A stretch of DNA of 55,624 bases from a virus: positions 1-55,624 of IMG/VR virus record IMGVR_UViG_3300006162_000016; one strand, given 5' to 3'. The notes beneath the pieces are model-generated. The model was not told the origin of the DNA. It saw nothing but the letters and a program-made list of their open reading frames with translations, and searched no databases. A program made the position numbers and the translations under genes. This document shows positions 7,334 to 48,939 of the stretch, piece by piece. Position 1 is the stretch's first letter; every line of letters starts with the position of its first letter.

Positions 7334-7681
7334 ATGAATGGATTTAGAAAACGACTTGCTATTCTCTTAGCGAAGCCAATTAAAGAACCACTAAGAGCAC
7401 GTAGTTCGTGGTACCAAATGATTCAGCGTTGTTACAATCCGAGAAATCAAGGTTTTAAAAATTATGGTGGACGTGGGATAAAAGTGTGTGACCAATGGCG
7501 GAATTCATTTCAAAACTTTCTCAATGACTTAGGAGAAAGGCCACAAGGTCTTACCATCGAAAGAATAAATAACGATGGAGATTATGAACCGGGAAACTGT
7601 AAATGGGCAACGTACACAGAACAGAATAATAACAGAAGACCAGTCTCTAATTTGTGGAGATTACGCATCAAAAAGAGTTAA
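7334..7681 (+). CDS. HNH/AP2-type homing endonuclease, 115 aa
   Basis: Matches the short intron- or free-standing HNH endonucleases: a W-x-x-M-I-Q-R-C start, [30 protein letters not shown], then [10 protein letters not shown] and EQNNNRR. Starts one base after the upstream stop. The neighbouring genes are intact and no intron is evident. Confidence 0.8.
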
Positions 7682-7999: not shown

Positions 8000-8514
8000 A
8001 ACTTCGATATCAGTTAGGACTACTCATCGTCGGGATACTGGGATGCACGCTGATACTTCAGCGCTGTAACAAACCTTTACCTATCCCGAAAGGACCAGCA
8101 CAAATCTCGTATCAAAATGATACGATTGTGATCAAGCAGAAAGGTAAGCCGGATATCAAAGAGTTTCAACCTGATCCTAAGAGCACAGTCATCACGACTG
8201 ATGATAAAGGGCAAGTAACTGTCAAAGTTCGACAGTTTGGTGTTGGGACTGACTTAGGAGTGGGTATCGGGCTCTCAGACCGCGCTAGAGTGGCGCTGGA
8301 TGACCGCTTTGCCTACTTTAAGCGCTTCGGCGCCAATGCCGGCCTTGGGTTCAGTCTGGATAAGAATGACTACAAGAAGGGCCATTTGCTTGACATTGTG
8401 GACCCTTACGTGGGTGCCAGCGTCGTCCCGTTCGTTGGGATGCCAAATACGTCAATAGTTACAGCGTACACTGTAAGTAAACATGCGTTCATCTTTGTGA
8501 GGGTTCGATTCTAA
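7996..8514 (+). CDS. Predicted membrane-anchored or lipoprotein, 172 aa
   Basis: The N-terminus (residues about 5-21) is hydrophobic and ends in ILGC, a possible lipobox. The C-terminal half alternates hydrophobic and polar residues (FGVGTDLGVGIGL, AGLGFSL, YVGASVVPFVGM, FIFVRVRF), suggesting a beta-barrel or beta-sheet domain. It could be an outer-membrane or spanin-like protein. Overlaps rtcB by one base (TAATG). Confidence 0.5.
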   Translation: MKLRYQLGLLIVGILGCTLILQRCNKPLPIPKGPAQISYQNDTIVIKQKGKPDIKEFQPDPKSTVITTDDKGQVTVKVRQFGVGTDLGVGIGLSDRARVALDDRFAYFKRFGANAGLGFSLDKNDYKKGHLLDIVDPYVGASVVPFVGMPNTSIVTAYTVSKHAFIFVRVRF

Positions 8515-9692
8515 TGCCTATTCAAACCGTTGTCGAAACGCCACACGTCCCAGTGAAGGTCTGGTCACAGGATGTGGAAGCTGAGGCTTTAAAACAGCTT
8601 GAGAACACCGCCCGTTTACCGTTCGTCTTTAAACATGTAGCGGCAATGCCGGATGTTCATGTAGGACGAGGCGCGACAATTGGCTCAGTCATTGCTACCA
8701 AAGGTGCAGTGATTCCAGCGGCAGTGGGTGTTGATATCGGATGTGGTATGATGGCTGTGAAGACAAACTTAATCGCCGCACAAGTTGCGGAGAAGATTGC
8801 GGAGATTAGGCATAGCATCGAGAGGTCTATCCCAGTAGGCTTCAATGCCAATAAATCACTCAGTCAAGAAGTCCAGAATTGGACTGGATGGGTTGATGGA
8901 TGGATTGTTGAAGCTCATCCGGTGGCTGTCATTCAAAAGAGTGCAGCTCAGCTCGGTTCACTTGGTGGCGGGAATCATTTCATTGAAATCTGTTTGGACA
9001 AAGAAAATAATGTGTGGATCATGTTGCACTCAGGCTCACGCAACATTGGTAAGGTGTTGGCGGAGAAACACATTGATAAAGCCAAAGGTCTGATGAAGCA
9101 GATGTTTATCGGCTTGCCTGATCGCGACTTGGCGTACTTTGCACAAGGAACGCCTGAATTCAACGCATATACGTCCGATGTGCGTTGGGCTCAGTCGTAT
9201 GCCATGTTCAACCGTCAAGAGATGATGAGACGGATTCTTAAAGACCTTGGCTTCATGTTCAATGGCGGGATGCCAATAGAACCAGTATTCTCAGTAAACT
9301 GTCATCACAATTACTTGGAGTGGGAGCATCATTATGGAGAGAACGTTATTGTCACGCGCAAAGGAGCAGTACGCGCTAGAGAAGGAGACATGGGAATTAT
9401 TCCGGGCTCTATGGGCACACGGTCCTACATCGTGCGAGGCCGAGGTAATCCTGAGTCATTCAATTCCTGTTCACATGGGGCAGGTCGTCGTATGTCGAGG
9501 ACGAAGGCAAGGGCTACATTCACTGTGGAGGATTTGGCAAAACAAACAGAAGGGGTCGAATGTCGCAAAGATATTGGGATTGTGGATGAGATTCCGGGCG
9601 CGTATAAAGACATTGATGTGGTGATGGCAAATCAAACAGACTTGGTTGAAATCGTAGCTGAGCTCAAGCAAATTTGTTGCATCAAAGGATAG
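8514..9692 (+). CDS. rtcB: RtcB-type RNA ligase, 392 aa
   Basis: Mn/GTP-dependent ligase that joins RNA 2',3'-cyclic-phosphate (or 3'-phosphate) and 5'-OH ends, known for tRNA splicing and repair. Near full length for the family. Motifs in order: DVHVGRGATIG (47-57), VGVDIGCGM (metal-binding Asp74 and Cys77), LGGGNHFIE, HSGSRNIG, NCHHNY, GSMGTRSYIV, CSHGAGRRMSR containing the guanylylated histidine at about residue 320, and DEIPGAYKDI. All key residues appear intact. It may mend host- or phage-cleaved tRNAs; the rearranged tRNA at 48940 is another possible substrate. Confidence 0.95.
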   Translation: MPIQTVVETPHVPVKVWSQDVEAEALKQLENTARLPFVFKHVAAMPDVHVGRGATIGSVIATKGAVIPAAVGVDIGCGMMAVKTNLIAAQVAEKIAEIRHSIERSIPVGFNANKSLSQEVQNWTGWVDGWIVEAHPVAVIQKSAAQLGSLGGGNHFIEICLDKENNVWIMLHSGSRNIGKVLAEKHIDKAKGLMKQMFIGLPDRDLAYFAQGTPEFNAYTSDVRWAQSYAMFNRQEMMRRILKDLGFMFNGGMPIEPVFSVNCHHNYLEWEHHYGENVIVTRKGAVRAREGDMGIIPGSMGTRSYIVRGRGNPESFNSCSHGAGRRMSRTKARATFTVEDLAKQTEGVECRKDIGIVDEIPGAYKDIDVVMANQTDLVEIVAELKQICCIKG

Positions 9693-9782
9693 ATGATGAA
9701 CTATGAGGCAGTAGTTCGTGTAGCCGTTGAGTGTGCAGGGATCACCGTCGTGGTTGTGATGTTGCTCGTTTCATTATTGTAG
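9693..9782 (+). CDS. Single-pass membrane peptide, 29 aa
   Basis: ATGATG right after the rtcB stop with AAAGGAT upstream. The C-terminal half is a run of Val, Leu and Ile suited to one membrane helix. It may be a minor membrane protein; the function is unknown. Confidence 0.4.
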   Translation: MMNYEAVVRVAVECAGITVVVVMLLVSLL

Positions 9783-9805
9783 AATTTGTCGTAACTCAAA
9801 GAATC

Positions 9806-10002
9806 GAGAGCCGAAGACAATAAGGGCCGCGAACACGAGGTATTGCCTCAGTAGCGGAAAGCTGGTGTAAGTCCAGCACGACAGTCAATTAAGGCTCACA
9901 CCTAGCAAATCACATAAGAGCTAGGGAGTGTATGGGCAGGCTACCTCAGTTGAGCTTCGTAGCCACACCGGGCTTTGGAGTGGGGATTCCCGCTCGGCCC
10001 GG
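9806..10002 (+). ncRNA. Highly structured intergenic RNA, possible riboswitch or cis-element
   Basis: No gene fits here on the plus strand, but the RNA folds into nested helices: GAGCC (9808-9812) with GGCTC (9893-9897) enclosing CCGC/GCGG (9827-9830/9854-9857), GAGG/CCTC, and GCTGG/CCAGC (9861-9877, 7-base loop). Three hairpins follow: CCTAGC/GCTAGG (9901-9925), GGCTAC/GTAGCC (9939-9964) and CCGGGC/GCCCGG (9968-10002, with an inner 7-bp stem). The segment GGAAAGCTGGTGTAAGTCC resembles the core hairpin of cobalamin riboswitches and CAGGCTACC resembles a B12 box with one change, but the CCCGC segment is missing. It ends 35 bases before the gene at 10038. Confidence 0.6.
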
Positions 10003-10037
10003 TCTATTTGAAGGACTATTAAACTAGGAGGACGTAA

Positions 10038-10517
10038 ATGGCTAATAAGCCCACAGTCGTAGAAAACATTCAGGTGCTTCAAGTTGGTAAGTATGGTGTT
10101 CGCGTCGATGAAAAAACTTGGTTCGGAGTCAATGAGCCACTTACGCCCTCTCACTTTGTGCCGAATGAAGGTTACAAAGTTTCTGTGGTCGTGAGCAAGA
10201 CAGGTAAGAAGTATATCAATGAAATCCTTGGTACCGAAGTTGCACAGGAAGCCGCGCCTGCCAAAGCAGCAACGCCAGCTCCTGCCCCGACTCCGGCACC
10301 TGCCCCTAAAGCTGCAGCGCCAGCCGCTGATGCTACGCGTGCTGAGCACTACACTCCGAAGCTCGATGAGAAGAGCATTCAGATTCAGCGACAGGGATTG
10401 TATCAAGCCGCGCTTCAAAGTCCGGCCATTGCTCAATGGGCTGTGAACATTGACGAATATCTGGCTTTGGTTCGTAAAGTGGCTGATGCGGGTATCAAAT
10501 ATGTCGCAGAGCGCTAA
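10038..10517 (+). CDS. Putative single-stranded nucleic-acid-binding protein, 159 aa
   Basis: Very strong ribosome binding site (AGGAGGA). Residues 1-65 look like a small beta-barrel (IQVLQVGKYGVRVDEKTWF, YKVSVVVSKTGKKYI), compatible with an OB fold. An Ala/Pro-rich linker (about 70-100) leads to a helical C-terminal domain. Position at the head of the replication genes supports a single-stranded-DNA-binding role, but the family is not certain. It lies directly behind the structured RNA at 9806. Confidence 0.5.
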   Translation: MANKPTVVENIQVLQVGKYGVRVDEKTWFGVNEPLTPSHFVPNEGYKVSVVVSKTGKKYINEILGTEVAQEAAPAKAATPAPAPTPAPAPKAAAPAADATRAEHYTPKLDEKSIQIQRQGLYQAALQSPAIAQWAVNIDEYLALVRKVADAGIKYVAER

Positions 10518-10722
10518 TCCAGTCGAGCAGCAATGCAACGCTGTGTTGGCGCAGCCCTGCCCATACAAGGCTCCCCCGCTCATGTTTATGGGCGGTCATA
10601 GTTTCTGTCCTTGTGTGTGCAGGGCCATTCGGACGGCCTACATTGGTGGGTATCGAGATGGGAAAGCCGGTACCCCGCCGGAAGTTGGCATTGAATACAT
10701 TGATGGGAAGGAGCAAGACTAA
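10501..10722 (+). CDS. Small Cys-containing protein, 73 aa
   Basis: ATG at 10501 inside the end of the previous gene (17-base overlap); the stop overlaps the next ATG. Five cysteines including PCPY and FCPCVC suggest metal binding. Unknown function. Confidence 0.5.
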   Translation: MSQSANPVEQQCNAVLAQPCPYKAPPLMFMGGHSFCPCVCRAIRTAYIGGYRDGKAGTPPEVGIEYIDGKEQD

Positions 10723-48864: not shown

Positions 48865-48939
48865 TGGTTGCAGAGGACGGAATCGAACCGTCTACCTTCG
48901 GCTTATGAGGCCGACGAGCTACCAATGCTCCACTCCGCG
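48865..48939 (-). tRNA. tRNA with initiator (fMet) features, anticodon CAT
   Basis: A full cloverleaf of 75 bases with encoded CCA. Acceptor CGCGGAG pairs with CTCTGCA except at C1-A72, the mismatch that marks bacterial initiator tRNAs. The D stem has A11-U24, also an initiator feature. Anticodon arm TCGGC-CTCATAA-GCCGA (anticodon at 48905-48907) has three G-C pairs next to the loop, although the innermost is C-G and not G-C. T arm GACGG-TTCGATT-CCGTC. Much of it is close to E. coli tRNA-fMet. It directly abuts the rearranged tRNA at 48940. Confidence 0.93.

Follow-up and report, generated by a model that had tools for sequence, protein, structure and literature searches.

Two covarying RNA domains precede the gene of a probable OB-fold protein at the head of a phage replication operon

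Introduction

What does an elaborate RNA fold of about 200 bases do just ahead of a phage replication operon? The question is raised by a virus record of 55.6 kb (IMG/VR record IMGVR_UViG_3300006162_000016, 55,624 nucleotides), which is taken over its whole length and called the window here. The stretch lies between a 30-codon open reading frame (ORF, 9692-9782) and the gene at 10038, the first of the replication operon. The short ORF is of membrane type and sits behind a gene for an RtcB ligase (8514-9692, Pfam E = 1e-128), while the 10038 gene is followed by those of a PD-(D/E)XK exonuclease (10722), an Rv2179c-type exonuclease (11338) and a DnaB-type helicase (11973). GC skew in the window switches sign near 28 kb.

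An initial annotation, made from the sequence alone, saw here one large branched domain with following hairpins, noted a likeness to cobalamin riboswitches, and left the choice between a riboswitch, a ribozyme and a new phage RNA. We find that the region is made of two independent RNA domains, termed modules A and B, and a terminal hairpin, termed module C. All features described are on the plus strand unless stated otherwise.

Results

The folded stretch and its borders

The segment 9806-10002 folds at -75.5 kcal/mol (z = -3.4), and none of 200 shuffled sequences was equally stable, which bears out the initial annotation of a structured non-coding stretch of about 200 bases. At least seven helices had been claimed and more than seven are present; the hairpins seen at 9901-9925 and 9939-9964, the strong hairpin at 9968-10003 and the T-loop-like hairpin at 9861-9877 are all real. 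In terms of borders, the 3' end was rightly placed before the ribosome-binding site of the 10038 gene, but the true start is at 9786, about 20 bases further upstream than proposed. The longer segment 9786-10005 gives z = -3.7. No protein gene occupies the stretch, and the sole overlapping ORF of at least 50 amino acids is antisense (9921-10583, minus strand), with no counterpart in the related contigs L002 and L003.

Relatives and the arrangement of the modules

Protein-led and pattern scans of IMG/VR revealed three contigs, L002, L003 and L006, that carry part of the leader before the same gene. The protein-led scans found this gene only in these three and in L007, and the product of the 10038 gene is 75% identical to its L002 homologue over the whole alignment. 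The carriers of A or B so far are thus four phages (the window, L002, L003 and L006), all with the same gene downstream and with differing genes upstream. Counted from the upstream stop codon, the first helix begins 2-8 bases further on; in L006 it begins at the stop codon itself. Because the element starts at or after this stop codon, runs up to a ribosome site and follows varied upstream genes, it is probably an intercistronic cis-acting leader and not a promoter-proximal one.

Four leader types were found in the four leaders: A alone, A with another hairpin, B with C, and A with B and C. Judged from these four, the modules would be exchangeable parts before one gene. The L002 stretch behind module A (2897-2972) is another stable hairpin domain that replaces B and C (z = -3.4, none of 300 shuffles); having a different structure, it is not a copy of A or B. 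The leader of L007 was likewise rejected as a copy of either module, since its structure, cut by the contig end, differs; its positions 1-125 form a different multibranched fold closed by UAGAUCUA/UAGAUUUA beside the Shine-Dalgarno sequence.

A small ORF directly 5' of module A, about 30 codons long and hydrophobic at one end, is shared by the window (9692-9782) and L002 (about 2693-2789). RtcB is encoded upstream of the leader in the window (8514-9692) and in the L006/L017 phage (L017 1138-2322), and is missing at that place in L002 and L003, so it is a variable insert and not a constant partner of the RNA. HNH-type endonuclease ORFs are seen at differing places around the replication operon, at 7334-7681 in the window and, by eye, at 5131-5601 in L002.

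Module A

Module A is a multibranched domain (9786-9884; homologues L002:2792-2896 and L003:2842-2943), laid out as a closing helix of 6-7 bp, a hairpin with a conserved loop, one or more variable arms and a last hairpin against the closing helix. In the window, the closing helix P1 pairs UUGUCGU (9786-9792) with ACGACAG (9878-9884). Its ends pair in all three copies: UGUCGU/ACGACA in the window, UGUCCU/AGGACA in L002 and UUGCCCU/AGGGCAA in L003. Two bases inside P1 is the hairpin P2 (9795-9810), with a covarying stem (CUC/GAG in the window, CGC/GCG in L002, CGU/ACG in L003) and a conserved 10-nt loop, AAAGAAUCGA at 9798-9807, which reads AAAGA(A/C)UCGA across the three. The arm at 9827-9857 consists of P4 (CCGC 9827-9830 / GCGG 9854-9857; CCAC/GUGG in L002) carrying P5 (GAGG 9837-9840 / CCUC 9846-9849). 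The last hairpin, P6 (9861-9877), abuts P1 directly and has a 5-bp stem, GCUGG/CCAGC, with a T-loop-like loop of 7 nt, UGUAAGU; the L002 counterpart is AUUGG-UGUGAGU-CCAAU.

The copy in L003 is the most divergent. In its own fold P1 and P2 are kept, and GCUGG/CCAGC abuts P1 with a hairpin inserted in the loop. P4 and P5 are probably absent or replaced there, as this fold shows neither clearly, and the L003 pairs that automatic alignment gives for them are therefore doubtful.

Across the three-sequence alignment, 93% of the cells of the named structure pair and 9 pairs have two-sided changes; by a statistic that ignores phylogeny, 1 of 500 shuffles was as good, and versions slid along the alignment reached at most 1. 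Without the doubtful L003 pairs, our own count leaves 7 two-sided pairs, in P1, P2, P4 and P6. RNAalifold arrives unaided at the same fold, as does the single-sequence fold of L002. An alternative helix, UUGUC/GACAA (9786-9790/9816-9820), can form in the window and L002, and was discarded as it never varies and has a probability below 0.1.

Module B

Module B (9893-9965; homologue L006:2293-2366) has interleaved helices and a conserved flank, UUAAGG, that begins at 9889. P1b pairs GGCUCA (9893-9898) with UGAGCU (9951-9956). The P2b hairpin (9901-9925) has the stem CCUAGC/GCUAGG (9901-9906/9920-9925) and a 13-nt loop, AAAUCACAUAAGA. It is followed by a segment, GAGUGUAUGGGCA (9926-9938), that is identical in L006 and unpaired in the model used, and then by P3b (9939-9964), which pairs GGCUAC (9939-9944) with GUAGCC (9959-9964) around a conserved CUCAGU. 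In L006 these helices read GGCCAU/AUGGCC for P1b (three two-sided changes), CCUACC/GGUAGG for P2b, and GCAUCU/GGAUGC for P3b (three two-sided changes, p = 0.0004 for P3b alone). The unpaired parts are nearly identical in both phages, and the loop part UCACAUAAG of P2b is exactly so.

All 18 pairs are kept between the two sequences and 7 of them change on both sides, despite differences at 20 of 73 positions; this count places the single gap by hand beside P3b, where automatic alignment makes P3b look worse. In simulations that place substitutions at random and ignore phylogeny, 7 two-sided changes came up in none of 200,000 runs, and pairing as complete as this at a rate of 6 in 100,000. The interleaving of P1b and P3b would mean either a pseudoknot or a switch with two states. 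When only nested pairs are allowed, P3b is strongly preferred (0.92, against 0.0 for P1b). The 2 nt that link P1b to P3b are few for a coaxial pseudoknot, so a switch may be at work.

Compensatory changes in related phages, which had been proposed as a check of the fold, were thus found in both domains. They also change the picture of the central part. The initial annotation had described a three-branched domain closed by GAGCC/GGCTC (9808-9812 / 9893-9897), and this pairing does belong to the global minimum-energy fold of the window sequence alone, with a pair probability of about 0.32. It has no comparative support: GAG 9808-9810 changes in step with CUC 9795-9797, and GGCUCA 9893-9898 with UGAGCU 9951-9956. 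Since the two strands have these other partners in relatives with only A or only B, the pairing is an incidental alternative, and the stretch holds two separate domains instead of one. That A and B are conserved RNA domains, as a structural claim, we hold to be very likely.

Module C and the ribosome-binding stretch

Ahead of the ribosome-binding site stands module C (9968-10003), a strong hairpin rich in GC (z = -4.5, none of 300 shuffles). L006 has a shorter hairpin of different sequence at the same place. Module C has no T-run, and for this reason was not scored as a terminator.

Behind it lies an A/U-rich, weakly structured stretch (10003-10037) with UUAAA and the Shine-Dalgarno sequence AGGAGG; UUAAA is 5' of the Shine-Dalgarno sequence in L002 as well. 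The mean unpaired probability of the ribosome site is 0.53 in the window, 0.47 in L002, 0.52 in L003 and 0.53 in L017, while twelve other starts range from 0.34 to 0.58. The site is therefore within the upper end of the other genes of the phage, and its openness is not exceptional. A conserved string, GUCNAUUUGAARGGAC, is found behind hairpin C in the window (10003-10017) and in L006 (about 2388-2403), where it is 5' of an in-frame upstream ATG of the downstream gene.

Searches for known RNAs and further copies

Rfam reported no family at the gathering threshold in the window, and relaxing the cut-off to E<=10 brought up nothing credible there or in the relatives. Two domains that covary as RNA and match nothing in Rfam support a new phage RNA, the last of the initial proposals. 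Against GenBank phages there was no match to the leader (blastn) or to the 10038 protein (tblastn). Pattern scans of IMG/VR with the T-loop hairpin, the P2 loop and module B gave no true match beyond L002, L003 and L006; the other matches were without the flanking helices and several resemble coding sequence. In GTDB genomes, a module-A descriptor returned 113 stretches, of which one (L134) passed the pairing filter; this weak, A/U-rich match was taken as chance. Among the records checked, a model of module A (R1) found only the three copies already described, and that of module B (R2) only the window and L006 copies.

The protein of the 10038 gene

The downstream gene (10038-10517) encodes 159 amino acids, with an OB-fold-like N-terminal model, an A/P-rich linker and a helical C-terminus. 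The AF2 model of residues 1-72, from a 5-sequence input, is all-beta with a pLDDT of 80. Its best structural matches include the ssDNA-binding LEF-3 (Z 8.2 and 7.7), RPA, SSB and RecO, but also OB-fold-like proteins with another role, CusF among them, and a Z under about 8 can reflect a common arrangement. Foldseek gave no significant E-value for the model, and the sequence matched no family. On this model, the product is probably an OB-fold protein of the ssDNA-binding type.

Discussion

Most likely, the leader controls the output of the 10038 gene, and perhaps also that of the replication genes behind it. Our preferred reading, adopted tentatively and with less than even confidence, is a cis-acting intercistronic leader of this gene that perhaps serves as an autogenous operator like that of T4 gene 32. 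The regulator would be the gene product itself, which is probably an OB-fold protein of the single-strand-binding type. After first binding the folded domain, it would go on to cover the weakly structured A/U-rich ribosome-binding stretch; in excess, the protein would shut off its own translation, as T4 gp32 does on its leader pseudoknot. The compensatory changes in both domains and their constant place before the same gene, both read from sequence, favour such control, as do the OB-fold-like product, its exonuclease and DnaB-type helicase neighbours, and a layout like that of T4 gene 32. Against it, differing modules stand before similar proteins, and a single protein family would need to bind RNAs that are unrelated to each other, although strong divergence is also seen among gp32-like operators. 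Furthermore, A and B exceed the size that a gp32 operator requires, and their conserved loops would fit ligand binding as well.

The same loops are an argument for the nearest alternative, in which A, B or both are aptamers of metabolite or ion riboswitches, perhaps arranged in tandem, and govern how strongly the replication operon is expressed, with P1b and P3b as alternative states. We consider this unlikely, while giving it some weight. Conserved unpaired loops do lie inside covarying helices (AAAGAMUCGA in A, UCACAUAAG and GAGUGUAUGGGCA in B), and the overlap of P1b and P3b resembles an aptamer with a switching helix; yet no Rfam riboswitch matches, P3b overlaps neither the ribosome site nor hairpin C, and the element is limited to a handful of phages, with no metabolic gene adjacent and no host copies among the genomes scanned. 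Rather less likely still is a role in RNA processing, where a tRNA-like module A would guide a host nuclease, RNase P or another, to a cut that parts the operon from the upstream gene, after which the folded 5' end would protect the mRNA downstream. Module A shares the arm order of a type II tRNA cloverleaf: a 7-bp closing helix, a 2-nt linker, a short hairpin, then the arm or arms, of which the last, a 5-bp stem with a 7-nt loop UGURAGU, abuts the closing helix. P1 and P6 together make 12 bp, the loop is T-loop-like in the window (UGUAAGU) and L002 (UGUGAGU), and in the carrier phages the upstream stop codon is closely followed by the start of the element. On the other hand, it is without a CCA end, GG in the D-like loop and a proper anticodon arm. 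The T-arm-like arm is seen in the window and L002, but in L003 the hairpin inside the T-loop spoils the likeness, and module B bears no likeness to a tRNA. Neither ARAGORN nor the Rfam tRNA model detects a tRNA or tmRNA here; the only tRNA of the window is a lone tRNA-Met (CAT) on the minus strand (48865-48939).

We regard as improbable that the nascent RNA acts on RNA polymerase at the entry of the operon, whether by HK022 put-like antitermination or as an attenuator with hairpin C. The put RNAs are a phage precedent for antitermination (PMC9378689), and such a role would suit a structured RNA that finishes in a strong GC hairpin ahead of an operon. However, hairpin C is without a T-run, and the gap from the upstream stop codon to module A is too narrow for a promoter and contains no promoter-like match. 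Very improbable is a self-cleaving ribozyme of the twister-sister kind, or a trans-acting small RNA released from the transcript whose ends RtcB, encoded at 8514-9692, could join. The T-loop hairpin GGUGYAAGYCC and the GGCUCA string do recall twister-sister (RF02681), but the match on which the ribozyme proposal rests has 13.0 bits against a gathering threshold of 34 and straddles the border of A and B. No such match exists in L003, nor in L002, which is also without the GGCUCA part, and RtcB is not adjacent to the RNA in either. Least probable of all, the structure would act as single-stranded DNA, for example as a site of replication initiation or primosome assembly. Its place just ahead of the replication genes fits this; against it, the element is always on the coding strand, snug between stop codon and ribosome site, and no GC-skew turn occurs at the leader. 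Because of the gp32-like layout and the UUAAA, we place autogenous control ahead of a riboswitch, and the latter ahead of processing, yet tentatively, given that the openness of the ribosome site is not exceptional.

It is quite possible, if somewhat short of probable, that two undescribed RNA classes, one tRNA-like and multibranched, the other of interleaved helices, are exchangeable leader cassettes of a phage OB-fold protein gene, bound either by the protein, which would so regulate itself, or by a ligand new to riboswitches. If so, phage replication operons, in which few structured leaders are known, would gain two small, well-defined RNA folds, and unrelated modules swapped before one gene would clearly exemplify convergent or modular regulation by RNA. 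Domains A and B are short, so they can be made and tested directly.

As for known systems, the likeness to cobalamin riboswitches comes down to the T-loop hairpin, GGUGNRAGUCC, which is indeed present. The CCCGC segment and the B12 box are absent here, the module topology differs, and no Rfam cobalamin model matches at gathering or at E<=10. Such T-loop hairpins also occur in tRNA, twister-sister and group II introns. Another phage leader before a gene of the ssDNA-binding type is the DUF2815 RNA motif (RF03084), which lies ahead of DUF2815 genes in phages. Binding of ssDNA has been described for a DUF2815 protein (PMC5686142). The match of this motif to L006 is at chance level (17.8 bits against a gathering threshold of 41.2, E = 0.57), and there is none in the window.

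Lastly, the operator of T4 and RB69 gene 32 offers the fullest comparison. T4 gp32 nucleates on a leader pseudoknot, spreads over a less structured ribosome site with UUAAA and represses its own translation (PMC535899, PMC3014915). That operator is of about 28 nt, whereas the present leader has 99 + 73 nt in two domains of different fold, and no sequence relation between them was seen. Module A has no pseudoknot; in module B, P1b and P3b each covary and could be alternative states. Both systems share the phage replication setting, a folded intercistronic leader before a UUAAA-bearing ribosome-binding stretch (here weakly structured, though within the range of other starts), a possible pseudoknot (here in module B), and a downstream gene that probably encodes an OB-fold nucleic-acid-binding protein. 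If the protein binds the modules, this would be an operator of a phage ssDNA-binding protein that evolved independently of T4 gp32.
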